Assembly: GCF_030864355.1 (NCBI RefSeq)
Contig: NC_083393.1
Location: 2,666,001 to 2,730,000 of the forward strand
Direction: 5' to 3'
Source: Cutaneotrichosporon cavernicola
Lineage: Eukaryota > Basidiomycota > Tremellomycetes > Trichosporonales > Trichosporonaceae
Length of the DNA stretch: 64,000 nt
The notes under the pieces are model-generated. The model was not told where the DNA came from. It searched no databases and saw only the letters and a program-made list of their open reading frames with translations. Position 1 is the stretch's first letter, and every line of letters begins with the position of its first letter. This document shows, one piece after another, positions 21,283-39,629 of the stretch. The position numbers and the translations under genes were made by a program.

Positions 21283-22141
21283 TTATAAAATCAGAGTATA
21301 GTCCGATGGAGAGAAGGAACGAAGGGCGCGACTAATATTTGACTGGACGCGACGGTTGCACTCATCGCAGATGAAGTTTAGAGTGTAATAATCATTCCTA
21401 AGAACAAGCGAGGGCTGAGCCATTAGGAGTTGTGTAACTTTATTGAGCTCCTCTTTGACTGGGCTAAAGAAACTATACCGTTCAGTGTTCTTACAGTGCC
21501 GGTTGCAGAATCGGGCGAATTCGCCATGGATTCGGAAAGACGGGAAATGGATTGCTTCGCGCCAGCGTCTGTGGAGGTCGTAAATGGCGACCAGGGCGAG
21601 TGGCCTATGGCGCTTAAGCCTCTCCAGGCTCCACGTCGACATGTTATCGATGGGTTCAGCCAGCAGAGAGAGGGAGAGGTCGCGAAAGTCACTGGTGTCT
21701 TGAGCAAGGATTGAGAGTACGACCACAATGCAGGGCGTCATCTGGGCTGCCTTGGCTGTGTGGAGGAGAACACGCGTGACAGTAGGGAGTTCCAAGCTGT
21801 CCGCAAGGGTAAGTAAGGACGTCGTTGAAGTGAACGAGCTCCAGCTTTGGAGGAGGGGAGCCGCGTAACGTGCTGTTGATCGCACCCAGGGCGTAGGCCA
21901 GTGCGGCCGAAGTTGTAGGAAGAGGGATGACTCCTTCTTTCTCGCCGCTAACGGCCTCTCGGGAGACGTTGTTAATGGACTTGAGGTCCTTGAAGAACGA
22001 GGAGAAGACAGCGAGGCAGTCCCAGTCCTAATAGAAGCGGATGCCGTCGGACGACTCGAAGATAGTGTCCGAGGGCTTCTTGGTAGCGAAGAGAGAGTGG
22101 AATACTGTGTTGGACTTGGTCACTCCGTCATTTGCGGTCAT
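21283..22141 (-). pseudogene. BTB-like family pseudogene 1 (stop plus frameshift)
   Basis: A copy of the local BTB-like family. From the ATG at 22141 the frame reads TIFESSDGIRFY, meets an in-frame TAG at 22028-22030, and continues DWDCLAVFSSFFKDLKS, clearly one broken BTB/POZ fold. After ALGAINSTLRGSPPP (near 21870-21885) homology moves to another frame (SLELPTVTRVLLHTAKAAQ) and runs to the TAA at 21283 with the family C-terminal FICDECNRRVQSNISRAL. Neither lesion can be removed by a plausible intron. The C-terminal C-x2-C-x2-RV motif is shared with the other copies. Function in the family is unknown. Confidence 0.7.
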
Positions 22142-22345
22142 GGTAAAGGGCCAGTAGCTGGAGGAGAGGAGAAGAGGAGGAGGTGGTAGTGGAGAGGGGG
22201 AGAGTTAGGCAGGTGGGAAGAAAGGAGGATGCAGGGTAGTCTATCGTTCAACGATTAACAGAGCCACTGGACAGATAGTGCGGATAGTACGACGGGTGAG
22301 TGGGCAGATAATGAGTGGTGATAGAAACTGAGCGAGAAAACGTTC

Positions 22346-23267
22346 TCATGCAGCCCTTATATGTTGGCGAGAGCAGAGGAGCGTATGGCCCCAGTCACAC
22401 TTCACAAAATATTCCAAATTGAAGCGTGTTTTGAACGGATCCTTAAGTCTACACAAATACACCACAGCTCCTTGGCACGCCCCAAGGAGGGCGTGATTGA
22501 GAGCAGCAGCTTCGCGAAGACGCCCAAGTTCGTTTTTCACGCTCCTCTGCACGCGGTCGTCACATCAGTCGCAGTTGAGATAGACACTGTAGAAGTGGTG
22601 CAGAGTGAAAGACGAACTGTGCGAGAGCGCCTCGCGGACGATATCCATCTACAGTAGCTGCGGACCAGGTTGTCAAAACTGCCATCGCACTTGACGACCT
22701 GGGAACATTCGTCTTTACAGGAGCGCGTTAGATTGTTGTAATTGTTACGGAAGTTGGAAATGGAATCGAGGGCGTCGCGCCAGCGAAAGCGTTGGCGGAA
22801 GAGAGCGATCAGGGCTAGGGGACGCAATTCTTGAGCCACTCGTGGTTCCGTGCGGAGAACTCCGAGCCGGGTCGAGCGAGGATGGAAGTGGCCATAATCG
22901 AGAGTGTGATTAGAGCGCACAGCTCGTGTTTCGCGACCTTAGCTGCCAGGAGAAGCGCTCGGATCTCCAGGGGAACGTCGAGTTTATAGGAGAGACTGAT
23001 GACTTCGTCAAAGCTACTGAAACTGTCGGACGGTCGCAGAGCGGGAGGGGCCGCACCCGGTAGTGTTGCGTTGATTGCACCAGGGGTGTTGGGGAGGGCG
23101 CTCGACGTGACTGGTAGATAGAGAGATCGGGGCTCTGGACAGCCCGCCGCGTTGGGTCCGAGCTTGTCGACCGACTCGAGGCCCTTGAAGAACTGGAGAG
23201 GCAGGCGAGGAAAATGGTGAATTACAATTTCAAGCATGTCAAAGAAAGAGGGAGGGGGGGACGACAC
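22346..23267 (-). pseudogene. BTB-like family pseudogene 2 (frameshifts and stop)
   Basis: A second decayed copy, matching pseudogene 1 segment by segment but in three frames. FFKGLESVDKL ... GAINATLPGAAPP ... SYKLDVPLEIRALLLAAKVAK ends at a stop near 22815. RPLALIALFRQRFRWRDAL continues in the next frame. The C-terminal FYSVYLNCD-stop-CDDRVQRSVKNELG sits in the third frame with a TGA where pseudogene 1 has Glu. No intact BTB N-terminus is visible. At least two frameshifts and one nonsense codon make it a clear pseudogene of the cluster at 21.3-25.9 kb. Confidence 0.7.
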
Positions 23268-23528
23268 CCGTTTCGAGCTACGACCAGGATATGCAGGGGG
23301 AAGGTTTGGGGATCCTTCTGTTGATCAGTGACCGATCTACCAATCGATACATTGCAGAGCTAGTCCTTTTCCAGAACGAGGAGAAATGGCCACCGCTACG
23401 TTCTATCCTTCATCGTTCACCACCATCTACAAATGTGTCGTTACCTCGTCCTATACTGTCCTGTCTAATGCTATACAACTATCCCGAGAGAAACTGCCGC
23501 CTACTGTACAGAAACCTTTTCCCCTGCC

Positions 23529-24704
23529 CTACGGCGTAGTCACCGCCTTCATCTTGCCCGAGAGCGTCCAACTCATGTAGTCGAACAGCATGTCGGGCAT
23601 GTCACGGTTGAGGTTGCCGAGCCGCCAGCTCGAGGGCGTAATGTTCCAGTCGTACTGACGAAGAATGGCTTCAATCATGGCTGTGCCACACGTCTTGCAA
23701 AAGGAGTCCCGAAACTCGCTCTCCAGAGCGACGAGCAGGACCTCGAGGCAGACGCACTGGGGGTATGCCTCGATCGTCTCCCAGATGCAAATCGCGGCAT
23801 GGATGTAGTACGCCGCCTCCAATCCGCACTCGGAAGCGTATGTCGGGCAGTGATGGGTCGAGCATGTGTCGGAGAACTTGAAATCGGTGTACAAGCATGA
23901 ACCGACAAACTCGGTCATCTCGGAGTTCCAGCGACCGACCATGATCCCAACCTCTTCGAACCGGTCAGGAGCCTTGGTCATAAGAGTCCGAGTCCACCAG
24001 AAGCGTTTGGGTTGATAGATGTACTGGTACTGGTGGACGGGGGAGAGGAGGAAGGTAGAGTAACGGGCGACAACCGTGATGAACTTTCCGAGGGTGGCGA
24101 AAACAAAGATGGTTTGGCTCTTGGCATGGCCATAGTCGAGCTCGAGACGGCGGATGACGGCCTGGAAGAAGATCTGAGGATTAACGTCGAACTTATCCTG
24201 GAGTTCGACGAGGTCGGTCAGGAGCGCGTCGTTGTCGGCCTCGGTCCCATTGAGAGCGAGATGGGGTGGATGGTGATACGCGTCAGGACACGTTAAGACC
24301 CCGGCTAGAAACTCCACGGCTGCGGTCGAGACGCCAGTGATAGGGAATTCGGGGACGAGCTGCTCGTCATGAGGTGACGGGGTGGGAATCGTCAGAGCAG
24401 ACTTGAAGGCATCGCTTGCCTTGGCAAGGGCTTGGGCAGGGAGGAGGAAGGTGGTTCCGTCGTCTGCAACGAGGTTCGCATGAAGGATGGCAGGCTTGGG
24501 AGGAACATCGAGCGCCGGAAAGTCATGGGCATCGCGGACAGAGTCTTTGGAACTGTCTGGGCTGGAAGTCCCTGGGGATGACTTCAGAACTGTGGCTGCC
24601 CATGCCTTGACCTTCTTGGAGGAAGGCGGGTTGGCACAGAGCTTGGGGAAATCACTGTGTCGTGCAACCGGGCGCTTGGGAAGAGGATGATTGTCGTGTC
24701 CCAT
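23529..24704 (-). CDS. BTB/POZ-like protein, intact member of local family
   Basis: A single-exon gene of about 391 residues from the ATG at 24704. An upstream in-frame ATG at 24809 would add 35 hydrophobic residues and is less likely. The N-terminal 100 residues are disordered. They are followed by a BTB-like fold (LVADDGTTFLLPAQALAKASDAFKSAL, then VEFLAGVLTC). The C-terminal half is helical and Cys-rich (HHCPTYASECGLEAAYYIH, FRDSFCKTCGTAMIEAIL). It shares RWNS, CP-x-Y and the terminal C-x2-C region with the gene at 25091, and looser similarity with both pseudogenes. Many fungi carry such BTB genes in expanded clusters, possibly as Cullin-3 adaptors; no function is assigned. Confidence 0.7.
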   Translation of the reverse strand: MGHDNHPLPKRPVARHSDFPKLCANPPSSKKVKAWAATVLKSSPGTSSPDSSKDSVRDAHDFPALDVPPKPAILHANLVADDGTTFLLPAQALAKASDAFKSALTIPTPSPHDEQLVPEFPITGVSTAAVEFLAGVLTCPDAYHHPPHLALNGTEADNDALLTDLVELQDKFDVNPQIFFQAVIRRLELDYGHAKSQTIFVFATLGKFITVVARYSTFLLSPVHQYQYIYQPKRFWWTRTLMTKAPDRFEEVGIMVGRWNSEMTEFVGSCLYTDFKFSDTCSTHHCPTYASECGLEAAYYIHAAICIWETIEAYPQCVCLEVLLVALESEFRDSFCKTCGTAMIEAILRQYDWNITPSSWRLGNLNRDMPDMLFDYMSWTLSGKMKAVTTP

Positions 24705-25090
24705 GTTGTTAACGAGGTTGAGCTTGAAAGGCAGTGATGAAGAGATGGAAGGATGACAGATGAAGAACGACCCGGACGAGATTAAGGACCGGAAGAAGGA
24801 AAGTTGCAATGAACATTGAGGGTACTTAGAGGTACTTAGAGAAGGGAAGGTACAAGGCGACTAACACAAGCTAACGGTGAACTTGCAGATGGGGTTACGA
24901 GTTTACGACCAGTCGAAAGGCAAAGCATACCCAGCAGGATCCCCAATTTCGATCCATCGATAAAGGCAGATCGGCCGATTGTCGAGTACTCCAAGGCCGC
25001 GATGGACGCCCTCGTACCTGTACGTTTAAAGGACGGTGCCCGTGAGTAGTGGAGTGGTGCGAGGTGGTTGTGGGAAAGAGGGCGACAACA
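24705..25090. other. Short divergent region between two BTB-like genes
   Basis: About 390 bp between the intact copy and the plus-strand copy. The missing BTB N-terminus of the latter was looked for here and not found. It contains a direct duplication of GGTACTTAGA near 24822-24841. Confidence 0.5.
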
Positions 25091-25870
25091 ATGTGTGTCA
25101 GTGGGCGAGGACTCTGTCCATCGGGCGACATTGCCAAGTTTACGGACATTGACGTAGTCTTACCTCAATCACCCTTTAAACGATCTCTGTGGTCTGCAAA
25201 CTGCTACCGATTCAACTGCGTGTACGACGTGTTATACGCCAGTCTCGTCCACTATCGCTGGCCGCCAAACATCATCTTCGCAGCGAGAGTCCTCCTCGAC
25301 CGCGGAAATGCCCAGTACTGGTCGCAGAAGCTCCTCGCCGACGGAGAGCAGGGCTTGCACCCGTGGGCTGTCCGCCGACTCAGAGAGGACGCGCCCAAAG
25401 TCTACGGTGCTCTCCACCAGCTCTTCATCCGCTGGAACTCGGCCTTCGCACTCTTTAAGAAGTCGTCCTCGACAACGTTTCTTGTCGACAACAACCGGGC
25501 TTTTGGCGCGCGCTGCCAGCGGAAAGGCGGGGCTGGCGATGCAAAGGAGACGTTCAAGAGCCTGCATCAGAAAGGCCCCTGCCCCGTCTACTGCGCGTAC
25601 CAGGGAGACTTTTACAAGTTCCACGGGGCTATTCTAGAGAAGATATACGCGTTCGCCGCGGAGACGCCTGGGCTCATAGACTGCAACGGGCCGCTCGAAC
25701 GCTTCTGCTCCGTTCACGTGTCTTGCCAGAACTGTGTGCGCCGCGTTGAGGCTTCAGCTCGCGCGTCTTGGCTGCGCACTATGACCCATGTCGACTGGTC
25801 TCTCTCGAGGAAGGATGGTGCCAGGGGCCCATGGCAGGACGGGAAGAAGAGGAAGCGCAACCACACTTAA
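25091..25870 (+). CDS. BTB-like family member lacking the BTB N-terminus
   Basis: An open frame of about 259 residues from the ATG at 25091; the frame is open from 25049. It matches only the C-terminal half of the family: NIIFAARVLLDRGNAQYW, RWNSAFALFKKS, GPCPVYCAYQGDFYKFHGA and SVHVSCQNCVRRVEASARAS. It ends in a basic stretch, GKKRKRNHT. The spacing of RWNS, CP-x-Y, Y-x2-H and C-x2-C equals that of the divergent neighbour, so the two are paralogues in inverted orientation. Lack of a BTB domain suggests truncation by rearrangement, or a 5' exon I could not find. Confidence 0.55.
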   Translation: MCVSGRGLCPSGDIAKFTDIDVVLPQSPFKRSLWSANCYRFNCVYDVLYASLVHYRWPPNIIFAARVLLDRGNAQYWSQKLLADGEQGLHPWAVRRLREDAPKVYGALHQLFIRWNSAFALFKKSSSTTFLVDNNRAFGARCQRKGGAGDAKETFKSLHQKGPCPVYCAYQGDFYKFHGAILEKIYAFAAETPGLIDCNGPLERFCSVHVSCQNCVRRVEASARASWLRTMTHVDWSLSRKDGARGPWQDGKKRKRNHT

Positions 25871-26117
25871 GGCTGAGGCCACGGCAACAGGCATTGTAGA
25901 ATTGTAAGCTGACCTTGTTTGTATCTTCGGGAATCCCAATCCTCGGTGTACTGTACTATCCGAGATGGATGATATATCAACTTAGACGTCTGAAGAAGTA
26001 CCCGGTCTTTCATAACAGCCCACGAGTTCAGCTCCCAAGGGAGACAGAGAAACGGCAGAAGCGTTAGAGACTCGCATGTTGGCCATGTTATTACTGCCGA
26101 CGACCAAAAATATTGCG

Positions 26118-26189
26118 TATTCGCTGTGAGTTTCGAACTCACGACCTTTCGCGTGTGAAGCGAACGCTCTCCCACTGAGCTAAGCGAAC
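26118..26189 (-). tRNA. tRNA-Val (anticodon CAC)
   Basis: A 72-nt cloverleaf on the minus strand. The acceptor pairs GTTCGCT with AGCGAAT (first pair G-U), followed by discriminator A. The D arm is GCTC/GAGC. The anticodon stem is TTCGC/GCGAA with loop TTCACAC, anticodon CAC. The T arm is GTGAG-TTCGAAA-CTCAC. No intron. A T-rich pol III terminator (TATTTTTGG) follows immediately. Lies between the BTB-like cluster and the F-box-like gene. Confidence 0.95.
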
Positions 26190-26367
26190 CGGAATTGCTT
26201 AATACTGTGTTTCCTATCCCATTACCTAGTTCTGAGATCGTTAGCCCAACCCTATTTTCCACGCTGTTTCCCGTGTAATGTGTTCCACCTTTCTGTAGCC
26301 ACTTGCCTATCTCCTGATGAATATTTGCATCACCGCATAAAGCCATCCAGGCCGAGGAGTAACGCAG

Positions 26368-27313
26368 TTAAATGACATCTCCACCCGAAGGGAATGTCCC
26401 CAGGAGGTTACAAGGGTGATGGGCGCCAGCGGCAGGGAGGAATACATCACCCAAGCGGCAATTTTCGACGTTTGGGAACAGGGCGCGAAGGTGTGGCTTC
26501 CAGGCCCCGCAGAAGCAAGGCTCGTGTGAATTGAGTGTCACAACGCGTGTGTACTGAAGAAGTGATGTCTTGAAGTTGGTCGTGTAAGGATCCCCATCGC
26601 CGTCGACGAGGCCAAGGAACTGGTCGAAGGAGGAGAAGACACCCCTCGCGAGGGCGTCTGTATCCTTTACGGGCCCGCAATGCTCCAAGATATCAGCGCG
26701 GAAACCGTCGAGGCGAGAGGCAAAAGTGATCTCGTTTTCAACTTCGAGTTTGGAAAGGACGTTGACAGTCGCGCATCCCTTCCCGCCAGAGGAGCAGCGG
26801 TACAAGTGCCGGAACATCTCGATTGAGCGACGGATAGTATGGTCCCTGTTAATGAGGGATCCGCGTAGGACCATCCACGGCCAATCCAACTCCCCTAGAA
26901 TCAGACTCTTGTAGAGTGCTTCCCCGGCGATCTCGAAGAAGGTCTTGTTGACTCGAAGGAGGGTGGCACGCGTTCCGCGATCGGCGTAGTTGACGATGAC
27001 CTCTAGGATGTGGTGGCAGGCGTTGAGGGGTGCGAGAGTCTCACTGCCAGAAATGGGTGACCCCATTCCGGCAGGTGTTAAGTCCGCGGCAGAGGTGGGG
27101 AGGGTGGCCGAGGTACCGAACTGACTGGGGCGCATCGGGATGGGAGAGCTCGGCTGCGATTAGTGCTGGCCAAGAAGCAGGGCTCACCGGTGAGTCGTAA
27201 CGGCGCAAGTTCCAGGTCGACGGGCTACCGCGGAGCTTGGGCGTGAGTCCTGTCGAGGGAGAGTAAGGGGGGAGTCCGGGGCTCTGTAGCCCGATCGAGG
27301 TAGGTGCGCTCAT
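26368..27313 (-). CDS. F-box-like protein, hypothetical
   Basis: A two-exon gene of about 300 residues. Exon 1 (MSAPTSIGLQSPGLPPYS...) is proline/serine-rich and ends RRYDSP. A roughly 34-nt intron (GTGAGC...ATCGCAG) joins in phase 0 to PSSPIPMRPSQFG. Around residues 80-120 is an F-box-like helix set: LNACHHILEVIVNYADRGT, RATLLRVNKTFFEIAGEALYKS. That pattern is common in large basidiomycete families of substrate receptors. The remainder contains EPCFCGAWKPHLRALFPNVE, resembling the strand-turn part of such proteins. No leucine-rich repeats are obvious. Partner and substrate unknown; the F-box assignment is tentative. Confidence 0.65.
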
Positions 27314-27732: not shown

Positions 27733-30700
27733 CTACGCGCGAGACCCCTTCTTCTTGTTGGTGAGGTTGACGCGGTGTCCAACCCTGTCCTTACGCTGCG
27801 CCGCCTGCCCGATAGGGACGTACGAGAACGGGTCGGGCCCGTCGCTGCGCTTGACGTCTCCCTTGCCGCGCTTGGAGCGGAACTCCTCGCCGAGCTTGAC
27901 AGCCCTCTTCTTGGCCTTCTTCGGCTTCTTGTCGCCGATCAGCTCGTCGAGGTCCATCATCGCCTCGTCCTCCCGCTCGGCCTCGCGGGCCCTCTTTGTG
28001 TTCTTGTTGAACTTGAGGCCGCCGCGAGCATCGCGAGTCGCGCCGTCGACGCTCCGCATCGCCGCCATGTACGCGGTGCCCTCGCCAGCCCCACGCTTCA
28101 TGTCCATCCCCTCGTCCTCGTCGCCAGACTCCTCGATAACAAGCTTGCCCGAGCGGTCCGTCTTGAAGTGTGCGGCATCCTGCCCTGGCTTGCGCTTGCG
28201 GGACGCGGCGGACGGGTCGGCACTGGTGACTCCACCCGCGATCGATCGCGAGAGCAAGTCCATCGGTTCGTCACCCTCGTTGCGGATGAAAGTCTGGCCA
28301 GCGGCTGCAGCGGCAGCGGCAGCCTTGCGCTGGCGCTTCGAGAGCGGCTTGATTGGCCGCGCCTCCTCCTCGCCATCCGACTCGAGGTCCGAGTCCGAGT
28401 TGTAGAGGATGTCATCGAACGCGTTTCCTGACGACTGCTTGGGCTTGCCCTCGTCGTCGTCGTCGCCATTCTCAGCCGCAGCCTTCTTGCGCTTGGCACG
28501 GTCCTTGCGCCGCTTGATATTCTCCAGCACCTTGCGCTCACCACCTGCGGGTGCGTTCTTGTACACCACGTCGTAGCCAAACTTCCGGATCATGCGCTCG
28601 AAGATGTGGACCGTCTTCGACTTGAAGTGGTTCTTGTGGTCGTGGACCCAGCCAAGGAGAGCGGGGACGAGCGCGTCCAGGTGGGGCTCGACGGTGTTAA
28701 TAGGCAACGCAACGACAGCGACCTTGACAAAGCCGAGCGCCGACTTGACGATCTCACGGTTCTTGGAACCGACGAAAACGACAATGGTGGCGACGAGCTC
28801 CGAGATGAGATCGTTAGAGACGTCGTCCTTGAACTCGAAGAGGAGACGCGACAGCGCGTTGATACTGGCCGAGATCATGTGCGGAGTGTCGGCAGTGAGA
28901 CCAGCAGCCACCATGGTAATGTACTCCTGGACGTTGGCAGCGACCGTGTTCTCCTCCATCTCCTCGCTGTCCTCGTCGACAGGGACATGCTGCTTGACCT
29001 CGCCACCCTTGGACATCTTGTGCGCCATGAGGACGAGTAGGTCGTAACCGGCGTCACGGGCCTTCTCGTTAGTCTCCTTCGTGCCAAGGACAGCCTCGGA
29101 GAGCAGCTCGGGGATGAGGTGGAGGCGGTCTGTGGGAAGCGCCTCGACAACCGTGCCGAGAAGCTGGAGGCGGTCGCGCTGGGCACCGGCGCCAACACCA
29201 GTCGCGACCTCATTGAGCTTCTGGACGAGGAGCTCGAGGTTGTCGCCGTTGACAGCGACGCCGAGCTTGCCGGCTTCGATGAGACGGGTGAGGAGACGAT
29301 ACGCCTTCTTCTGGACCGTCGCATCCGAGTGAAGCAGCAGAGCCTGAGTGGACGTCGCATCGAACAGGGCCACTGATTGAGCCGGAGCAAGGCTCGGAAC
29401 GAAGATGATGAGCAGGTCCATCATAGTGTGCGAGATAGGCGATGCGCCGGGACCAGGGATCTTGGATGACCCGAGATTCTCTCCGAGGTGCTTGGTGACT
29501 GTGTTGTACGTCTCAACGATGTCCGAAGAGTCCATGATGCGGACCCACGCGGCGATGACGTCGCCGACCATGCCGCGCTGCTCGCGAGGAGTGGAGCTGA
29601 AGACGTTGAGGAGCACACCGACCATGTCCTTGGCCAGGGCCTTGAGCGCAACAAGGTCCTCCTTCGCACGCTCCTGGTCGACACCGAACTGCTTGCGCAG
29701 CTCAGATGGGTCAGTTGTCGAGCCAAGCAGACGCTCGGTTGAGGTGACGAGCGCGGTCAATGAGCGGAGCAGTGGCGAGAGAAGGAGCGGTTGGGAGTAG
29801 AGGAGGTTAGTGATGAGGCTGAGGAACTGGCTGGTGAGGCCCTGGGGTTAGTCTTGTTCCAATATAGCCACTCACGTCCTTGAGGTCGCGAGGCATGTCG
29901 CAAAAGCCGGGGAGGCATGCCCAGATCTGGCTAACAATGGTCTCCCAGACCTTGGCCTCGGTGTCCTTGCCAGCGTCCTCAGCCTTGACCTTGCGCTCGA
30001 AGATGCGCTCGGACAATGGGCGGAAGTACTCGGCGAAGTACGCAAGCGAGTCGTTGGTCGTGCGCGCGCGGATGAGGGGCAGGAGGTGGGCACGGCCAGG
30101 CTGAGGCGGACGGCCTGAGGCATCCGGCTCGATGTTGAGTGGGAGCGCCTTAAGCACGCCCTCCACACCGATAACCTCGATGGCCATGCCGAGCACGTCG
30201 TCGACCTTGTTCTTGTGGTCGAAGCCCTGCTGACTGCGGAGGTCTCCCACGTCCTGGATAAGGGGGAGGAGGAGCTCCTCAGCGGCAGTCTGGGCGCACC
30301 CCGCAGGGTCAATCTTCGCCTCGCCCGGCGCAATACGGAGACGCAAACGCGAGATGAGTGCGGCGAGGATGGTGAGAAGGTACTCGATGCGGATAGCGTG
30401 CGAGTCGAGGGCCTCGGTGAGCGCCGCAAGCAGGCGAGTGAGGAACGGCGTCTTCTGCTTCTTGCGGGCGCCGGGCATGTGCGAACCGCGGCGCATGAAG
30501 TCGATCGCGGCGACGATACCGTCATCCGTGATGCAGTACCTCACAATGCCGTTCGCGACGGCATCTGCCGCGGCAGCGCAGACGGTTGCCGATGTGGAGG
30601 GCGCCAGGAGGGTTTCGTTGAAGATGAGGTTGAAAGCCTTGGGGAGGTACGCCCCGAGGTTTGCGGGGTCCTGGAGCACCATCTTAATGAGGGCAGAGCT

Positions 30701-31726
30701 CAGCGCCGACAAGTACGACGTCATGTCTGACGAGCCGAGCTCAGGTGGCGACTGGAGGAGCGAGTCAACGATCTTGGGCAGGTTGGTCATGACAGCGGGC
30801 TTGGCAGCGTGCTGGTCTGCAGGAGGAGGCGACAGGAGGTGGGCAAGGAGCGAGTACACCTGCGTGGTGAGGTGGGGGTGGGGAGGGAGTGCGAGGAGGA
30901 GACCGCAGAGCTTGCTGAGCTCATCGTCGCCCCATACAGCCACCCAACCTCGCAATCCTTGCACGACCCAGATCGCCTTCTTCCCCTCCGAGTCCTCCGA
31001 GTCGGCGAACCGCGTCTTCTTGCCCTTGAAAGTTGGCTTGCTCGAGCCACCTGAGCGGATGTCCTCTTCCAGCACATTGGTGACCCAGTCGCGTGCGCGG
31101 GGCAGGTAAGGGTGGGCGCCAGGCGTGACGCGGGGAGGCACGGGGGTGATGAGGATCTTGCGGACACCCTCCTGCGCCAGATGCCGGACCTTGGGGCGCG
31201 GGTCGAGGTTGAGCTCGAGGAGGTAGTTCCATGCACGCTTGAGGAGCGGAGATGAGCCCATTAAACCCGGCGTCGCGAAGAGGATGGCGCTGGTGCAGAT
31301 TTGGATGAGGGAGCGGAGGGGAGGAGGGTGTTCAAGCGCTGTGGGGTACAGCGGGAGGAGGGACTCCAGGAGCGGGGAGAGCTTGGAGAGCACCACCTGA
31401 GCTGGTGTCTCCGGCACCACAATTGCAAGGAGGTAGAGCGTTGCGGGAATCAACGCGCCGCTGCTCATGTTCTCCGTCTCGGCCATCTCCTCGCCCGTCT
31501 CTCCAGGGAGGATCTCATCCGCGCACGCCTTCTCGAGGCACTGAAGGAGCGCGGTGAAGTATGCAGTGGAGGAGTGGGGGAGGCTTGAGCCGGGGAGCGT
31601 GGATGAAATGGTGGCCTCGATCGCGGTGAGGAGCTGCGCTGGCTTGGCTTGGTGCGCTTGGGCGGAAGACGTCAGTCGCCGCACATTGGCGAGCTGCGTC
31701 CCGAAGTCTGGCGTTACTGACGCCAT
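27733..31726 (-). CDS. RRP12: Ribosomal RNA-processing protein 12 (RRP12)
   Basis: A HEAT-repeat export and maturation factor for pre-ribosomes. Two long exons are separated by one short intron near 29843-29876, which joins CDMPRDLKD to GLTSQFLSLITNLLYSQP. The frame then continues ALVTSTERLLGSTTD to the stop at 27733. The product is about 1,300 residues, as usual for the family. The middle part carries the NUC173-type region (NLGAYLPKAFNLIFNET, FEYLLTIL-like helices). The C-terminal 250 residues are basic and acidic low complexity (RRKDRAKRKKAAAENGDDDDEG, KPKKAKKRAVKLGEEFRSK) and end NKKKGSRA, typical of nucleolar proteins. Start MASVTPDFG at 31726 is preferred over an in-frame ATG at 31804. 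A TCACGTGA palindrome lies about 100 bp upstream. Confidence 0.93.
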
Positions 31727-32242: not shown

Positions 32243-32586
32243 ATGGGCACCTGCACCAGCCGCCAGCTCTACCTCGATGACTTAATCCCTGGCAACCGCC
32301 GCCACCATGAGATCTATTTCGTGCAGCCCTACGAGTACCCAAAGGGTCAGGCCAAGAACTATAAGTACTACCAGCGCGACATCCCGACAATGGGCCACGC
32401 GCCATGCAGTTACTACAACAACACCCGTGAGTTTCAGATCCCACCTCACTGACGGTAGGTCGGTGCGACATAATCCGCTCAAACGTGGGCGTTAACCCCC
32501 GCAACGGATTACCGCACCATTACTGCCACAATTGTGGTAAGAGCTACGACAACGTCTGGCAGTGGGACCTCCGTTTCAAGTGGTAG
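32243..32586 (+). CDS. Small Met-Gly Cys protein A (predicted N-myristoylated)
   Basis: Encodes 103 residues in two exons with a 32-nt intron at 32427-32458 (phase 1, donor GTGAGT, end CTGACGGTAG). The N-terminus is MGTCTSRQ: Gly2 and Ser6 fit the N-myristoyltransferase consensus, and Cys4 is placed for palmitoylation. The middle is Tyr-rich (NYKYYQRDIP). After the intron the protein reads RRCDIIRSN and ends YCHNCGKSYDNVWQW, so four cysteines (APC, RRC, C-x2-C) could form a small zinc site. Of the seven family members in this window it is the closest to RRP12. I know of no named family with this layout. Splicing is supported by frame, branch site and the shared intron phase. Confidence 0.8.
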
Positions 32587-33271
32587 ACCCTACTCCATGG
32601 CTCAATTTCCAAAACTCTCTGCTTCCATTTCGTTTTCATCCAGCAATATATCTCGTGTCCTCCATCACCTGCATGCTAGCATTGTGACTTTCTCCTGACG
32701 TCCTGCTGAGCCAGATGCATCTGGGAAACTGGTGGCGCAAAAGCAATTTTCACGCACGGGATGTACGTATGTGTGTGAATCTCCCACCGGGGCATCTCGT
32801 TCTTGTGTTCCCCCGTAAGCGGCACGACCGAGTGACGAGGGGTACATCCTTCAAAGACGAGTGAACAAAGTTGGGTTTGCCAGCCAGTGTTTGCCAGGCG
32901 TTCTGTTCTGCGTTGCAGTGACTTTACGTGCCGCATGCCTATGTGTTTTCCAGCTGTTGTAGCAGCAAAATGAAGCCATTTGCAGCCTGTATCCAAAGTA
33001 ATCGGGACCAACAATGGTGGAGCAGCCCAATCGAGTTTGCAGGAGAACGCCATGAGAGCCTCTGCTCTTCGTGACGTCGGTTCGTGGCAAGTGATCCGTC
33101 ACTAATATCGCGAGTCAGTGTGCAGGTGTGTCCTACGGCGTCATTTCTTGTTGCTTTCAACCTCCCTTCCACTCCGTCATCCTGTGCTACTCGCACCCTC
33201 TAATCTGCTCTGAATGGGACAAAAGGCCCCAATCCTGCTTCCTCGTTGTCCACTCATCCACTACTACTATC
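32587..33271. other. Spacer between small Met-Gly genes A and B
   Basis: About 685 bp. No further family copy was found on either strand. The last 150 bp is a C/T-rich leader for gene B. A TGACGTC element is at 33073-33079. Confidence 0.5.
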
Positions 33272-33572
33272 ATGGGCTCCTGCATCAGTGCACCCCGCAA
33301 CCCCCAACCCCCCATGCCCCTTTCCAAGATGTACGTCATCGAGGGCTTCGAGAAACTCCCTCTCTGCCGCATCGACGGTGGTGGTGAGTGATCTGGAGGG
33401 CTCTCTGATAGAAGGTCTGCCAAGCCCCTGTCCTCTCGAACTTGACGTCAAGGGTGTAGGGTACTACTGGTGTACCCGATGTTGTAACCTATACACTCTC
33501 CCCGGCGTGAGCCAGAATATCTACCCCATGTACCCCGGCCCCTTCTACGAACCCCAGAACAGCAGCGAGTAG
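33272..33572 (+). CDS. Small Met-Gly Cys protein B (predicted N-myristoylated)
   Basis: About 90 residues in two exons. The start MGSCISAP has Gly2, Cys4 and Ser6. Exon 1 ends EKLPLCRIDGG. The intron at 33384-33411 is only 28 nt (GTGAGT...CTGATAG), phase 1. A tandem acceptor (TAGAAG) would make it 31 nt and drop one residue. Exon 2 reads LPSPCPLELDVKGVG then YYWCTRCCNLYTLPG, so the pattern is P-L-C, intron, S-P-C, then C-x2-C-x3-Y as in the neighbours. The tail is Tyr/Pro-rich. Function unknown. Confidence 0.8.
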
Positions 33573-33893
33573 AGCGATCCGGATAGCTAGGGCAATACAT
33601 GGAATCAGATTGTGACATGATACTGGCTGAAGAGTTGAACGGGCGGACCTAACTGCGGAAGAGGAATGGGCTCCGCCACCGATATCCGCGACTGACTTGG
33701 AAATCGAGGATACTTCTGTACGGGCTCCAAAATCGTGTGTGAGTTCACGTGCGCCACCCTATCTCGCCTCTTAGCTGTCTCGCACTCTCTACTCCCACCC
33801 TCGGCGGGGAGCGTTATATACTCGTTTCTTCACGGTTTCCATCATTCACTCTCCATATTACTCTCAGCGTCTCGATAACTACTCCCCTTGATT
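33573..33893. promoter_or_regulatory. Promoter region of small Met-Gly gene C
   Basis: About 320 bp with a CACGTG box near 33742-33747 and a TATA-like GTTATATACT about 80 bp before the ATG at 33894, followed by a C/T-rich leader. Confidence 0.45.
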
Positions 33894-34287
33894 ATGGGCA
33901 ACATTCTCTCCCGCACACCTGAGATCATCCATCCCTCCAACGAGGAGATTTACCATCTGTGTGGCATCCAGTTCTTCGGCCTCTCAGGTTTCGACAGGGC
34001 GCCCCTCTGCGCGTCTCGCTGGATCACCGCACGTGAGTCACCTCAAGTGTTTGACGGTAGAACTGACAGCAGGCCCGTGCAAGTTGCAAGACCTCGCTGA
34101 CTATCCCTCAGGGCGGAGGCACTGCCCACGGTGCAACAAGGTGTTCCTCATGAAAGGCACCCCAGCGTGGGAGGACAACAGGGCCCAGAACTACCCCAAG
34201 TACGAGGGGCCGTGGTTCGGCACGGAAAAGGACAAGAACGGAGGAATCGTGGCAGTTAATTTAGAGGTTTCCATCCGCTATAGTTAA
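33894..34287 (+). CDS. Small Met-Gly Cys protein C (predicted N-myristoylated)
   Basis: About 117 residues in two exons. The N-terminus MGNILSRTPE has Gly2 and Ser6 but no adjacent Cys, so myristoylation without palmitoylation is expected. Exon 1 ends FDRAPLCASRWITA. The intron begins at 34033 in phase 1 and may end at 34060, 34069 or 34072. All three acceptors keep frame, and the first one ends TGACGGTAG, as in gene A. Exon 2 carries GPCKLQDLADYPSGRR and HCPRCNKVFLMKG, the same P-x-C, intron, P-C, C-x2-C-x3-[YF] order as in the siblings, then a charged tail (PWFGTEKDKNGG). The transposase fossil follows downstream. Confidence 0.78.
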
Positions 34288-34635
34288 GACATTGGATGCC
34301 CCAAGAAGGACTCTGGCATCACTGGGGAGCTGTTAATATCGGTAGCTAGTCGCAACGTGCCAGCGCTACCCTACATCCAGATCTCGAGAACGTGAGAAGT
34401 CCAACATGAGTCTGGTCACACAAACGCAGTTTAGGGCTACGCTCTGGGCAGCTAGGCCTTTTCCACTTCCATTATCCTTCTGATTTACAGCACATATGAA
34501 CGGCCGTCACGTGGGACAGTACAGCTTCCGGCAATAGTTCTGAAAAATTTCAGCAATTGTGGCGGCGGCGCGTTCGAATCGCTCGCACGCGGCGTCTTTC
34601 AGTGCACACAATCCGTATGCATTCATTCTATACAT
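34288..34635. other. Spacer between gene C and transposase fossil
   Basis: About 350 bp. It contains a TCACGTGG box near 34505-34512. No terminal inverted repeat partner for the fossil was recognised. Confidence 0.4.
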
Positions 34636-34992
34636 CTACAGGAACGTTGACTGGAGTGTCAGCAGTGGGCGAGGGGAGACCATGGCTAGACGGCGCTTGA
34701 GTTCTACCCATGCATGCTCGATGCAATTGACATCTGGTGAGCTTGGGGGGTGGAAAACCAAGTTAAGTCCTTGTTTATCCCACTCTGCACAACAAATCTT
34801 GGCCTTGTGGACAACTGCATTCCAATCATCAAGAATCATTGCGGGAAGCTGTAATGGACTTCTCGCTGTGCTTCCAACACCACGGGAGTGATCTTGATCT
34901 GCGGCATAAAACAACACATCTGGCTCGCCATTGAGGCCGAACCCAAACACCTCGTTACCAGCTTCCTCGCCCCACAAAATGGCTACATTAAC
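34636..34992 (-). mobile_element. Tc1/mariner-type DDE transposase fragment
   Basis: An open frame on the minus strand equals the C-terminal half of a Tc1/mariner-like transposase. It opens VAILWGEEAGNEVFGFG, in the place of the usual V-M-V-W-G block. It has a degraded second-Asp region (ILDDWNAVVHKAK) and the hallmark FHPPSSPDVNCIEHAWVEL with KRRL. The helix-turn-helix half, the first catalytic Asp and the inverted repeats are missing, so this is an inactive fossil. It lies between small Met-Gly genes C and D, ending about 40 bp before the start of D. Confidence 0.8.
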
Positions 34993-35033
34993 GTGCTTCT
35001 CTCATCGTCTCATCGTTTCGCCACCAATTCATC

Positions 35034-35249
35034 ATGGGCACCTGCTTCAGCTCGCACACATTCGACCCGCCTCCCACTGATTGGGAAGACCTCCCTCCTC
35101 GCCAGCGCCTCGGCCTTGAATGTAAGTACGAACGCGACAAAGCTGACCCAGCCGTTGACGAGCCGGAGTCGCAGATCTGGATGTTCCGCGAGCGGCTCTT
35201 CGTCCCTAAGCCGAAGCCGTACAAGTGGCCAAAGGACCCTCGTTTATAG
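35034..35249 (+). CDS. Small Met-Gly protein D, Cys motif lost
   Basis: The N-terminus MGTCFSSHTF is nearly that of protein A (Gly2, Cys4, Ser6). A 30-nt segment at 35122-35151 (GTAAGT...CTGACCCAG) sits at the family intron position in phase 1. It contains no stop and is a multiple of three, so spliced (61 residues) and retained (71 residues) forms are both coding. Where siblings have C-x2-C-x3-[YF], this protein reads QIWMFRERLFVPKPK, with no cysteines. It keeps the aromatic and basic surroundings and ends YKWPKDPRL. A divergent or degenerating member whose upstream region abuts the transposase fossil. Confidence 0.68.
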   Translation: MGTCFSSHTFDPPPTDWEDLPPRQRLGLECKYERDKADPAVDEPESQIWMFRERLFVPKPKPYKWPKDPRL

Positions 35250-35677
35250 CGACACCACAACACTCATACAGCAGAGCAAGTGTGGTGACGAGAGAGGGGT
35301 ATGAGGATGCATCTGATGTCCTGAGGTCCGTGTGCCACCTCGCGCTTCGTACTATCCAGCAAGAGTGACTTCCTTTGTCTGAGTCAGACAACCCAATCCT
35401 CTACTGACAATACTGTCTGGTCCGTGCGATGCGCACCTGTGATGGTGAGGGTGAAGCGTTGTGCCTTGTTGGCATCCTTGCTTCTCCCCATCATTCTCGC
35501 TTGTCCGAAGGGGTTCGTCATGTGCGGAAGACTTCAGCCAGCGTTGTTCTACCGACGAACCCCGACTGGCTCACTCCGCTCCTTTGACCGCCATCATCAG
35601 ATATAAACCCTTCTGCGCAGCACAGTCTTTTTCTTACCTTTACTCTCAACCCCTTCTTCATCTTCATTCCTCACATC
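35250..35677. promoter_or_regulatory. Spacer and promoter of small Met-Gly gene E
   Basis: About 430 bp. TATA-like GATATAAAC lies near 35598, about 75 bp before the ATG, with a pyrimidine-rich leader after it. No coding sequence seen. Confidence 0.45.
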
Positions 35678-35892
35678 ATGGGCTGCTGCATGAGTGCTCC
35701 TGAGGGCGGTACCGACCCCAGCCCTGGCCCTGTCATGATCGACAGCCTCTACCCTGCCCCAACCTGCCCTTCCATGTTCTGTGAGCCACACCAATACCTC
35801 CAAAGTTGACGCCAGATGTGTGCAACCTGGTCAATGAGAATGGCCTTTATCGCTGTACCCACTGCCGCGCCATCTATCAGCTCATCCGCTGA
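35678..35892 (+). CDS. Small Met-Gly Cys protein E (predicted N-myristoylated)
   Basis: The shortest intact member, 59 residues in two exons. The intron is at 35781-35815 (35 nt, phase 1, GTGAGC...GACGCCAG). The N-terminus MGCCMSAPEG has Gly2, Cys3, Cys4 and Ser6, the strongest dual-acylation signal of the set. Exon 1 ends YPAPTCPSMF. Exon 2 is nearly all zinc-site-like: YVCNLVNENGLYRCTHCRAIY, ending QLIR. The four cysteines are spaced as in the siblings. It shows the minimal unit of the family: acyl anchor, short linker, Cys domain. Confidence 0.8.
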
Positions 35893-36559
35893 GTTAGTCT
35901 AATAGAACTTTGGGAAGAGAAGTCATAGACAGCTGGGGGGATATGAAAGTGTGCTCGACGTTTCGGGGATCAATCAGAGCTGGGGTTAGTCAGCGAGTTG
36001 TCTTGGTGCGAGGTTTCAGCGGTGTGGAATTAGAACGAATGGTGACTGATGCCGTTGGTCATCAGTTTCTGCTTGCCAGACCTTCACCCTCCCCGTTCGG
36101 CGCGAATTGGCGGGCCACCTGATGCGGTTGTGAATGTAGATTATCAGCATGCCAGGTTGTGCTAGTTGAATGGTGACTGGGTTTAACTTGTGGGAGGAAT
36201 GCAGTTCGAACCGTAGTGCGGTCAAAAGTGGCAGGCTCCCTCCAGGTCAAGCTTGGTTCCAAGATCTGCGGCCCAGTGTTAGGGCCGACAGAGAAACAGC
36301 TTAGTACTCTCCATTGATGTATCACTGATCTGCTTCAGTGAGGTGAGTGTCCAGCAGTTGATCGCGTTCTTCATTGTTTAAGATGCTACATGTGTATGCG
36401 GCGTGGCTCATACGTCGTCCACTCTCAGAGTACTTAAAGCAATGCAGCACAATGAACCTCCCTTGTTCTTCGTCAACCACGACTGAGCTCCCCAGGATGC
36501 CGCCTCGCTTCTTCCGGCTAAAAAGCGGCGGGCAACTGTACGGGAGCTCCCCAACCACG
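35893..36559. other. Spacer between small Met-Gly genes E and F-prime
   Basis: About 665 bp. A minus-strand frame of 136 codons (36322-36732) overlaps the next gene and is judged a shadow. Nothing else recognised. Confidence 0.4.
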
Positions 36560-36902
36560 ATGGGCCAGGTCCTCCGCCACCTCCGTTCCAAGTCATATAA
36601 CAAGCCTGTTAAGGCCGCACAATCTGACAGGTGCCTCCCAGAGAATGGTATGTCTATCTCAATCCAGCTTACACAGGCCCTTGCGTCCTGTAGTGTCAGG
36701 ACGAGACGGCCCAAGTGTTCCAGTGGGTGCACTGCAGGTTCAGTATCGACCTGCTCAATCCCACCAAGGTGGTCAGTGGCGGCTTGGAGAGTGGCGATCC
36801 GTAGAGCGTAGAGCTAGGGCCTGTGGGGGAGAATGCATGCATATCTGCCAAAGGTACAAGGCGGTGGCAAGAGTTGCGTACATTCCACCCGCACCGACAT
36901 GA
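36560..36902 (+). CDS. Small Met-Gly family member F-prime, variant or decaying
   Basis: A relative of gene F. Exon 1 reads MGQVLRHLRSK (Gly2 kept, but Arg at position 6) and ends in phase 1 at 36647, like all siblings. The nearest acceptor (36676) gives GPCVL, identical to exon 2 of gene F, but then a TAG. Later acceptors, at 36693 or 36699, avoid the stop and open a frame to 36902. The C-terminal part, ACGGECMHICQRYKAVARV, aligns with CGTRTGMCICYKCWTAYRV of gene F, with the last Cys of the pair replaced by Tyr. Either a functional variant with altered splicing or an early pseudogene. Confidence 0.5.
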
Positions 36903-37118
36903 GTGCTGATCAGCGCGATCACACTGTGCTCCTTTGTTCGTCATCCTCCGAAGCGCGTTGTGGATTGTTCTTGTCACCCCATTAATCACAATCTGCCGCG
37001 CTGTCCGTTGACGCAAGCCGCCATAAAGGCCGTTCATTACATCATGGCCGCCCTGTCGCACCTCTAATCCCAACCCCACCTCTCACTGGTCAACCGTATC
37101 CGCCACCACATCCTAGCC

Positions 37119-37447
37119 ATGGGCAGCCTCCCCAGCAAGTGCACCGCCAGCGCACCTGACGAGTCTGTTATCCGTGGTCCGTACGACCTCAAGGACACGA
37201 CGACGCTCCCGCCTTGCGGTGGGCGCTGGTGGCAGTGTGCGCCCTGAAGTGACGAGGGCTGATGACAGGGCCTTGCGTCCTCACGCGCTGTGGGACACGC
37301 ACCGGCATGTGTATCTGCTACAAGTGCTGGACCGCGTACCGCGTCCACAGCCTGTGCGACTACCCTCCAGACTCGGAACGGTGTGAGTGGCCCCACAAGC
37401 ATGTTAAATGGCCTGAGCTGCCAGACGGGTTGTATATGCATTTCTAG
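37119..37447 (+). CDS. Small Met-Gly Cys protein F (predicted N-myristoylated)
   Basis: 92 residues in two exons. The intron is at 37219-37268 (50 nt, phase 1, donor GTGGGC, end CTGATGACAG). The N-terminus MGSLPSKCTAS has Gly2 and Ser6, with Cys at 8. Exon 1 ends TTTLPPCG. Exon 2 is the most Cys-rich of the family: GPCVLTRCGTRTGMCICYKC followed by WTAYRVHSLCDYPP and ERCEW. The tail is LPDGLYMHF. It lies 147 bp tail to tail from the N-myristoyltransferase gene, the enzyme predicted to act on it. Confidence 0.78.
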
Positions 37448-37593
37448 CTTGGTTGGCGCCTGCGGTTAGCCCGTGTGACGGACCTGTGTGGCCGGCGCTT
37501 GCTGTTAATGTGTTTATTGGTGGGCAGTGGTCAGCGGATGGGCAAGAAATGTTAGGTCTGTGTCAACTATGAGTGGCAAATGCATCCAAAACT

Positions 37594-39629
37594 CTAAAGC
37601 ATCACCACGCCGACACCCGAGCTCTTGCGCTGCGCCGTCGTGGACATGCCACCGTCGATCGGTGCTGTGGACCAGTTGTACAGATAGTCTGTGATCAGCT
37701 CTGTCCTATGAATCCTGCGGCTTACAGTTCTGCAGGCGAGGGAAAAGACGGTGTCAGTATTAAGGTTAGACTACTGCGGACACCACTTACGAGGGCACCA
37801 TCACCTCGGCCAAACTGCTATCAGCAACGCCAGCCTATCTGTACGAACCATCTGCTCGTCCAAGAACGCGTTGTTGTCCAGGAGCGTAAGCGCGTTGACG
37901 ACGTCAAAGTCGTGCTTTTTCGCCATGACGAGGAGGTCCGTGACGAGCGCGTTCAAGCGACGGTCAAGCAGGTTCTGCGTTTTGAGGTCGTGAGTGAACG
38001 CGTCGTCCGACGACGCGCCGGGCGCGAACACAGCGTCACTCGCATAGTAGAACATGTACGCCGCGTTCAAGCAGTCGTACTTGGGGTGCTGCATGATCGT
38101 CGAAGGGAGCGTGTAGAACGACACCACATCTGTGATGAGGTTTGTCGTTGGGTCCTAGGTGTCAGTGTGCCCTGCAGCGAACTCACTTCGACGACATAGG
38201 CCCACACGACCTGGTTCTCGCGCTTGCCGTTGGCCTCCTTGCCCATGCCAGAGATGAACCAGTGCTCGACGTCCTCGTCCGTGTTGAACAGCTGTGCGCA
38301 GTCAAAGCGGCCGAGGTACCGCCGCAGCAGCGCCGCTACCTGCGATACGTCGGCGGGCACCATCTCGCGGAAGCCAGGCGTCTTTGTCTGTTCTCCAGGG
38401 TTGTACTTGCGTACGAGGCGCGCGATTGTCTCGCCCTTTCGCAACGGCGAGAAGCCAATGTCGACGAGCTTGGCCGGGTTTAGCGACCGGTGGTAGTATC
38501 GACAAGTGCTGAATGGGGTAGGGATGCGCACACCTGCGGTGTAGATCGCCTGCCAGATGTTCGCGAGGTTGACCCGGCGCGTCACCTCCTTGATGAGGAC
38601 GGGCGCGAGGCGCTTCGAGCGCAGCTTCTTATGCACGCAAAGGAAGTTAATCTCGGCGTTCATGAAGGTGTTGTTCCGCACCCGCAGTTCGACGGGGATG
38701 CCCGAGATGAAGCCGACCAGCTTGCCCGTCTTCTGCACACGCACTCCGATGTGCCACTCCTTGTAGTATCCTGGTGGGGTGAGTGCCCTGGTGTGAGCTC
38801 TGGCACAGAAGTCGCAATTCACCAGAGGAGGAACTCGCGCGAGTAGCGGAAGCGGAACATGGCGTCATCGTCCTCGACATAGTTCTCCGTCAGAAGGTTG
38901 TGCACCTCGTCGATCTGGGATAAGCTCGGCGTGTGACACTCCCCACGAACCTCCTCGTCCTTTTTGATGTCAACGATACTCCACTCGAAGCCTGCTGGTA
39001 ACGCAATGGGGTGCGGCTGCACGTCTGCCGGCGTCTTGTGCTCGTCAATCGGGCCCTCCGTCTCCTGCTCCCCCTCCTTTTGAGGAACAGGTTGCGTCTT
39101 CCAGAACTGGTGTTAGCGACCTCGACGTCGTCCTACCTTGTGCTCTGCAGCGGCTTGGGGTCCACCAAGATGACCCTCGAGGAGCTTCATCAGGTCCGCA
39201 GCCTGCAGTGCTTTTCTGATATCGTCTGTCGTCAATCTGGCTGCCCAGACGCCGTCGGTCGTACCATTGCTAGCTCCTGCCGACTGCGACGAGTTCATGT
39301 TGCCCCGCACGATGTTTACGAGCTCATCCGCGGTCACCTCCCTGCCGTCAGCTTCGCTGTTGCCGTGCGCACTTGACGACAGGCGCCTTGGCCTTGGCCT
39401 TCTTCTTCTTCTTCTTTTTCTTCTTCTTCGCGCCGCCATCCTCGCCGCCTGCGCCACCCGCTGACCCTGGCTCCGTCGCGGCATCAGCCTCCTCGCTGCC
39501 CGACTCGTCCTCCTCGTCGATGTGCGTCTCCTCGAGTTGGGGGACGAGAGTGTCGTTGAGAAGTTCGGCGATAGACTTGACACCCGATCGGGCTTGGTCC
39601 CCCCCGGTTGCGCCCGCGTCGCCCGTCAT
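37594..39629 (-). CDS. NMT1: Glycylpeptide N-tetradecanoyltransferase (N-myristoyltransferase)
   Basis: Transfers myristate from myristoyl-CoA to N-terminal glycine of cytosolic proteins; essential in yeasts. The N-terminus is acidic, followed by a poly-lysine run (ribosome-binding type) at about 39395-39430. Conserved blocks: KFWKTQPVPQ, LPAGFEWSIVDI, LLTENYVEDDDAMFRFRYS, PPGYYKEWHIGVRV, LVGFISGIPVELRVR, INFLCVHKKLRSKRLAPVLI, IYTAGVRIPTPFSTCRYYHR, DVVSFYTLPSTIM and YYASDAVF. The C-terminus is FGRGDGALNYYLYNW then ...GVGVVML, whose terminal carboxylate is catalytic in the family. Reaching that C-terminus needs a 34-nt intron (37815-37848), a 61-nt intron (37730-37790), a 4-nt microexon and a further intron. 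Divergent from the MLP1-like gene. Confidence 0.96.
37726..37729 (-). other. 4-nt microexon of the NMT gene
   Basis: On the minus strand the order is GCCCTC, GTAAGT...CCTGCAG, AACT, GTAAGC...ATCACAG, ACTATCTG. Including AACT yields ALNYYLYNW, the invariant NMT sequence. Leaving it out breaks the frame. Both flanking introns have good donors and acceptors. Confidence 0.8.

Follow-up and report, generated by a model that had tools for sequence, protein, structure and literature searches.

Results

An array of seven mini-genes

The window analysed here, a stretch of 64,000 nucleotides (nt) at C1:2,666,001-2,730,000 of the Cutaneotrichosporon cavernicola genome (20.2 Mb, 8 contigs), holds an array of seven small genes, g1 to g7, at 32,243-37,447 on the + strand, sitting between RRP12 and the gene for N-myristoyltransferase (NMT; Table 1). 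The original prediction for this DNA was of seven mini-genes lying head to tail, and this was borne out, each gene starting with ATG GGC. Lengths of 59-117 residues had been given for all seven; the spliced products of six genes have them, but in the model used g6 is not intact and ends after 34 amino acids.

A feature beyond the earlier description is a common two-exon layout, present in five of the seven genes (g1, g2, g3, g5 and g7), in which one phase-1 intron of 28-50 nt lies between a first and a second cysteine (Cys1 and Cys2) and a C-x2-C motif follows. Mini-introns of this kind are normal in this genome, since six of the seven introns in our NMT model measure 30-36 nt. Scanned strictly for the layout behind a Met-Gly start, the whole window yielded these five genes and no others, and a looser scan added two chance-like matches with donors at 9306 (+) and 54497 (-). 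The GC content of third codon positions (GC3) was 0.72-0.79 in six array genes and 0.79 in both NMT and RRP12, and the GC content of the array's intergenic DNA was 0.52. There are two repeat families within the array, the larger of which is exactly codons 1-6 of g1, g2, g4 and g7, and of the 46 genome matches to ATGGGNNNNTGYNNNAGY, 4 are crowded onto the same strand of a 3.45-kb stretch, for which a crude Poisson estimate gives P of about 5e-7. When models of the zinc-type members were built with one member left out, g3, g5 and g7 were recovered (with 1, 0 and 1 of 2000 shuffles, respectively, scoring as well), and an alignment of g2 and g3 over 73 residues gave 29%. Taken as sequence evidence, this supports the view that the array genes are a genuine family, specific to the lineage, of zinc-knuckle microproteins predicted to be acylated.

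The model of g3 is identical to the annotated CcaverHIS002_0110130 (P0001), and the choice of a 50-nt intron for g7 follows the splice of P0002 and P0005. The remaining two genes depart from the layout. The N-terminus and the coding-like GC3 are kept in g4, from which C..CxxC is missing. A 17-nt block at the start of exon 2 is common to g6 and g7, and g6 is probably a decayed copy related to g7, another splice choice being conceivable. P0007 was rejected as a g4 ortholog, as it is the window's own unspliced reading of g4. At one position g7 has Cys and both the HIS641 and the HIS471 protein have Tyr (SERC versus SERY), with a further stretch missing from the HIS641 annotation; the strains differ here, and the gene model is unstable.

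Table 1. Features of the array and its surroundings, and the dispersed genes of similar layout. Positions are those of the window unless a contig is given; a slash between cysteines marks the intron.
Feature	Position	Strand	Description
g1	32243..32586; exons 32243-32426, 32459-32586	+	32-nt phase-1 intron; 103 amino acids; MGTCTSR...; C/C..CxxC
g2	33272..33572; exons 33272-33383, 33412-33572	+	28-nt phase-1 intron (31-nt alternative); 90 amino acids; MGSCISA...; YYWCTRC
g3	33894..34287; exons 33894-34032, 34073-34287	+	40-nt phase-1 intron; 117 amino acids; MGNILSR...; HCPRC
g4	35034..35249	+	MGTCFSS...; 71 amino acids unspliced or 61 with a 30-nt intron; without C..CxxC
g5	35678..35892; exons 35678-35780, 35816-35892	+	35-nt phase-1 intron; 59 amino acids; MGCCMSA...; YRCTHC
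g6	36560..36693	+	MGQVLRH...; without S6; 34 amino acids; in-frame TAG after four codons past a 29-nt intron
g7	37119..37447; exons 37119-37218, 37269-37447	+	50-nt phase-1 intron (32-nt alternative); 92 amino acids; MGSLPSK...; CICYKC
NMT	37594..39629	-	8 exons; 579-amino-acid model; PF01233 (E 2.2e-47)
RRP12 (5' part of gene)	29807..31726	-	other flank of the array
Transposase remnant	stretch 34490..34990 (DDE_3 match 34636-34839)	-	between g3 and g4
L018	C1:2,434,544		solitary, 264 kb from the array; MGSCLS; 29-nt phase-1 intron; C/C..WRCMHC
L054	C7:60500-68500 (8 kb)	both	six four-Cys mini-genes with CxGDxxGxNxG or a close variant, plus an MGCCLS start

Conservation in relatives

Orthologs were found for g1 (P0129, CspHIS471_0608490 of C. 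sp. HIS471, 93% over all 103 amino acids; P0130, 79% over exon 2), g3 (P0004, C. spelunceum 0404960, 72%; P0006, 54%) and g7 (P0002, HIS471 0608470, 96%; P0003, 65%), and two family searches returned no orthologs of g2, g4 or g5. The array is still clustered in C. sp. HIS471 (tags 0608470 and 0608490). The contigs that carry P0130 and P0006 come from the same source and both measure 5,281 bases; in this more distant relative the array is apparently clustered as well. For both genomes, placement on one contig is deduced from tags and contig sizes.

Of the orthologs from other genomes, five have a full N-terminus (P0002, P0003, P0004, P0006 and P0129), and each of these retains G2 and S6 while positions 3-5 vary; C39, C49, C64 and C67 are invariant across g3 and its two orthologs. 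Because the orthologs keep G2 and S6 and codons 1-6 form the largest repeat of the array, we suggest that selection has acted on a predicted acylation signal.

Dispersed genes of the same layout

Searching the genome for the MGxCxS codon pattern gave 46 matches in its AGY form and 102 in its TCN form, members that start MGxxxS without Cys4 (the g3 and g7 type) lying outside the scope of this search. The layout reading covered all 46 AGY-form and 79 of the 102 TCN-form matches, and just one of the 121 matches read outside the array has the array layout. This is L018, a solitary gene on the contig of the array. A stretch of contig C7 (L054) was chosen for its MGCCLS start, for which no zinc part was found, and it contains six four-Cys mini-genes (the C7 genes). 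Five of these came from a scan; the sixth was read by eye and is supported by the annotated CcaverHIS002_0700280, which fuses the gene's first exon with the second exon of a neighbour. An in-frame Met-Gly start is absent from five of the six, and the sixth has MGSMKR, which lacks S6, among several possible starts. Neither L018 nor the C7 cluster is near NMT, and genes of this layout are thus not confined to the NMT neighbourhood.

The C7 genes and L018 resemble the array in having two exons, a phase-1 mini-intron between Cys1 and Cys2 and then C-x2-C, but the C7 genes carry a CxGDxxGxNxG-type motif before the intron, mostly have no Met-Gly start and have a weak sequence link to the array. A model of the six C7 genes recovered L018 at 29.1 bits against 11.2 bits for the best of 2000 shuffles (0 of 2000 as good), and judged by its sequence L018 is a member of the C7 cluster. 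We think it probable that the array and the C7 set share a common origin, the case resting on layout more than on sequence, with L018 as a bridge between the two.

Searches of the genome with g1, g3, g2, g5 and g7 as single proteins gave self-matches only; such searches are too insensitive for paralogs and are no evidence against dispersed members. Single C7-type proteins likewise found themselves only, apart from a weak match of L018 at C5:1148550 (three stops, E 0.09). Layout matches that emerged under loosened scans, L038, L053, L065 and L083 (any ATG), L046 (any phase) and L087 (another loose scan), were chance-like and were rejected.

Predicted acylation

The PROSITE pattern for NMT substrates is a Met-Gly start, a permitted residue at position 3, a small residue at position 6 and no Pro at position 7. 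A check of each N-terminus against it agreed with the earlier claim of six Met-Gly starts with S6, four of them with Cys at position 3 or 4. Six of the seven array N-termini fit (MGTCTS, MGSCIS, MGNILS, MGTCFS, MGCCMS and MGSLPS), the exception being MGQVLR of g6, and so do L018 and the full-length orthologs from other genomes, five of five. A Cys residue at position 3 or 4 is present in g1, g2, g4, g5 and L018, and not in g3, g6 or g7.

One alternative is that these are zinc mini-proteins whose Met-Gly-Ser start has been inherited and is not a working acylation signal. That the C7 genes mostly manage without a Met-Gly start would fit this, as would the genome-wide count for the AGY form of MGxCxS, which is at control level (46 versus 48 for the reversed control, 4 of the 46 being in the array). 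Against it stand the retention of G2 and S6 in five of five full-length orthologs with positions 3-5 varying, and the finding that codons 1-6 make up the largest repeat among the paralogs; we judge it unlikely. In its TCN form the pattern exceeds the reversed control (102 versus 48), which also speaks against a non-working start, although composition bias and real myristoylation-type starts may each contribute to this excess.

The NMT gene and its adjacency to the array

The gene beyond g7 is a genuine NMT by its PF01233 match, and one NMT locus was found in the genome. The annotated CcaverHIS002_0110150 has 566 amino acids, 13 residues fewer in one exon than our model, to which it is 98% identical. 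The tail-to-tail arrangement that had been described was confirmed, with a spacing of 146 bp from the g7 stop (37447) to the NMT stop (37594) in place of the 147 bp first given; because the two are convergent, the array and NMT share no promoter. At the C-terminal end of NMT (window 37594-37814) the C. cavernicola annotation reads YLYNW and then a tail, and C. oleaginosum P0009 diverges after GDGALV; this is probably a difference between splice models.

An explanation for the adjacency could be that the array and NMT form an enzyme-substrate module, held together because linkage matters through co-regulation or co-inheritance with dedicated substrates. NMT acts on many substrates across the genome, which argues against such a dedicated arrangement, as do the convergent orientation with its lack of a common promoter and the location of both L018 and the C7 cluster away from NMT. 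In favour of a module, the array neighbours the one NMT locus found, the tags of g3 and NMT in HIS002 lie 20 units apart, and the chance of lying next to one particular gene out of some 7,750 (Table 2 of PMC10568926) would be approximately 0.03% with both flanks counted, although the gene was picked post hoc. The idea is weakened because L018 lies 264 kb away and the C7 genes are mostly without Met-Gly, and we consider a module very unlikely. We regard as highly improbable its fuller version, in which NMT is co-inherited and co-regulated with dedicated, diversifying zinc microproteins that are dually acylated, the unanchored copies are ancestral and the signal was gained beside NMT. The proposal of zinc peptides co-inherited with their modifying enzyme thus stands as regards a lineage-specific set with predicted zinc binding and an NMT-type N-terminus, but its tie to NMT is not supported, given L018 and the C7 cluster. 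The other option offered at the time, a family that simply expanded at this place, fits better, and the adjacency is most likely incidental. No description of an NMT gene cluster or of this mini-gene family was found in the searched literature, including the passages available of PMC4692089 and PMC11658702.

Genomic setting

RRP12 is divergent from the array, its ATG lying 516 bp from that of g1. The DDE_3 remnant inside the array, which we take to be Tc1/mariner-like, has partial copies at five further places in the genome. Elsewhere in the window, at 21283-27159, lie uncharacterised neighbouring open reading frames, of which 21283-22119 (-) and 25046-25870 (+) are weakly alike (E about 1e-4 in a six-sequence comparison) and matched no Pfam family; these are perhaps another local fast-evolving family. 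The genome paper, PMC10568926, describes BRAKER gene models built with RNA-seq hints, among which is the annotated counterpart of g3, and about 7,300-7,800 genes per strain, and it notes many rearrangements between strains.

Discussion

We propose, with moderate confidence, that the array is a tandem family of predicted acylated zinc-knuckle microproteins and that its position next to NMT is incidental. The gene structure models, the orthology, the conservation of motif and cysteines and the dispersed genes of the same layout are the observations from which this proposal starts. The family would be fast-evolving and lineage-specific, consisting of microproteins of 59-117 amino acids, with one common two-exon layout in five of the mini-genes. 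The N-terminal hexapeptide (MGxCxS or MGxxxS) would direct N-myristoylation by NMT, which would work in trans as it does for its other substrates, and any Cys3 or Cys4 would be S-acylated, giving a membrane anchor. The four C-terminal cysteines (Cys1, the intron, Cys2, then C-x2-C) may hold one zinc ion and thereby form a small binding module, so that the proteins could act as membrane-tethered zinc-knuckle adaptors or as competitors for partner proteins. The array itself would have been born between RRP12 and NMT by local duplication and decay, as in g6 and in g4 with its lost zinc part. The cluster on the other contig, mostly without the Met-Gly anchor, would be of probable common origin with it, and the solitary anchored gene L018 would link the two.

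Lipidation and zinc binding are predicted from knowledge of motifs, and the membrane role is likewise a prediction. Several results weigh against parts of this proposal. A Pfam scan of ten members (g3 and g7 not included) gave no convincing family, the best matches being GRXCR1-2_C (E 0.0027) and Zn_ribbon_5 (E 0.034) in one member each, and AlphaFold2 with three-sequence alignments produced models of low confidence (mean pLDDT, the predicted local distance difference test, 34.9 and 43.1). Within the array, the models with one member left out did not link g1 and g2 to the rest (523 and 1244 of 2000 shuffles scored as well). Between the two sets, the C7 model gave marginal results for g1, g2 and g5 (matched by 51, 36 and 54 of 2000 shuffles) and did not link g3, g4 or g7; the reverse model, built from the five zinc-type genes of the array, missed L018 (261 of 2000), and on the six C7 genes this array model fell below 5% only for c7b (22 of 2000) and c7a (96). 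In addition, the template that led to L018 and the C7 members was derived from the array, and their shared layout is therefore partly ascertained. Four cysteines are invariant in a ten-sequence alignment of both sets (g3 and g7 left out), but the sequences had been picked for these. Both AlphaFold2 models contain a short strand pair around CxxC, which is no more than suggestive, and a search of solved structures gave weak matches, the best at E 0.066, with many rubredoxin CxxC stretches among them.

Another possibility is that these are conflict-type or selfish small genes, subject to rapid birth, decay and divergence, in which the zinc and lipid features are parts of an antagonistic function. 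Tandem, fast-diverging genes, one of them probably decayed, with the remains of a transposon in their midst would suit such a role; nothing was found that points to a toxin or to drive, and we give this explanation very little credence.

As a predicted family of acylated zinc-knuckle microproteins, the array genes bear comparison with several known systems. The SH4-type N-termini of the Src family, LAMTOR1/Meh1 and G-alpha have the same MGxC..S layout for dual acylation, but there it precedes kinases or signalling domains, whereas the array encodes microproteins in tandem. The myristoylated RING proteins RNF11 and ZNRF1/ZNRF2 likewise combine N-terminal myristoylation with a C-terminal zinc module; they are larger and have full RING domains, in contrast to the one four-Cys knuckle of the array proteins, and the weak Pfam matches obtained for ten members included no RING family. 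A table in PMC12952070 names RNF11 and ZNRF2 as myristoylated, and ZNRF1 appears there in a reference title. The arenavirus Z protein, a viral RING protein, is also a small myristoylated zinc protein (a passage of PMC11658702 gives its RING and its G2 myristoylation) and is offered as an analogy only, with no homology claimed.

The array thus provides an example of probable membrane-anchored zinc microproteins forming a family for which no description was found in the searched literature, and the very small introns of this yeast lineage make such genes easily missed or fused. Where an enzyme gene lies beside genes for its candidate substrates in a eukaryote, dispersed relatives should be checked first. 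The tandem paralogs may serve as a natural experiment in how an N-terminal acylation signal is gained or lost.

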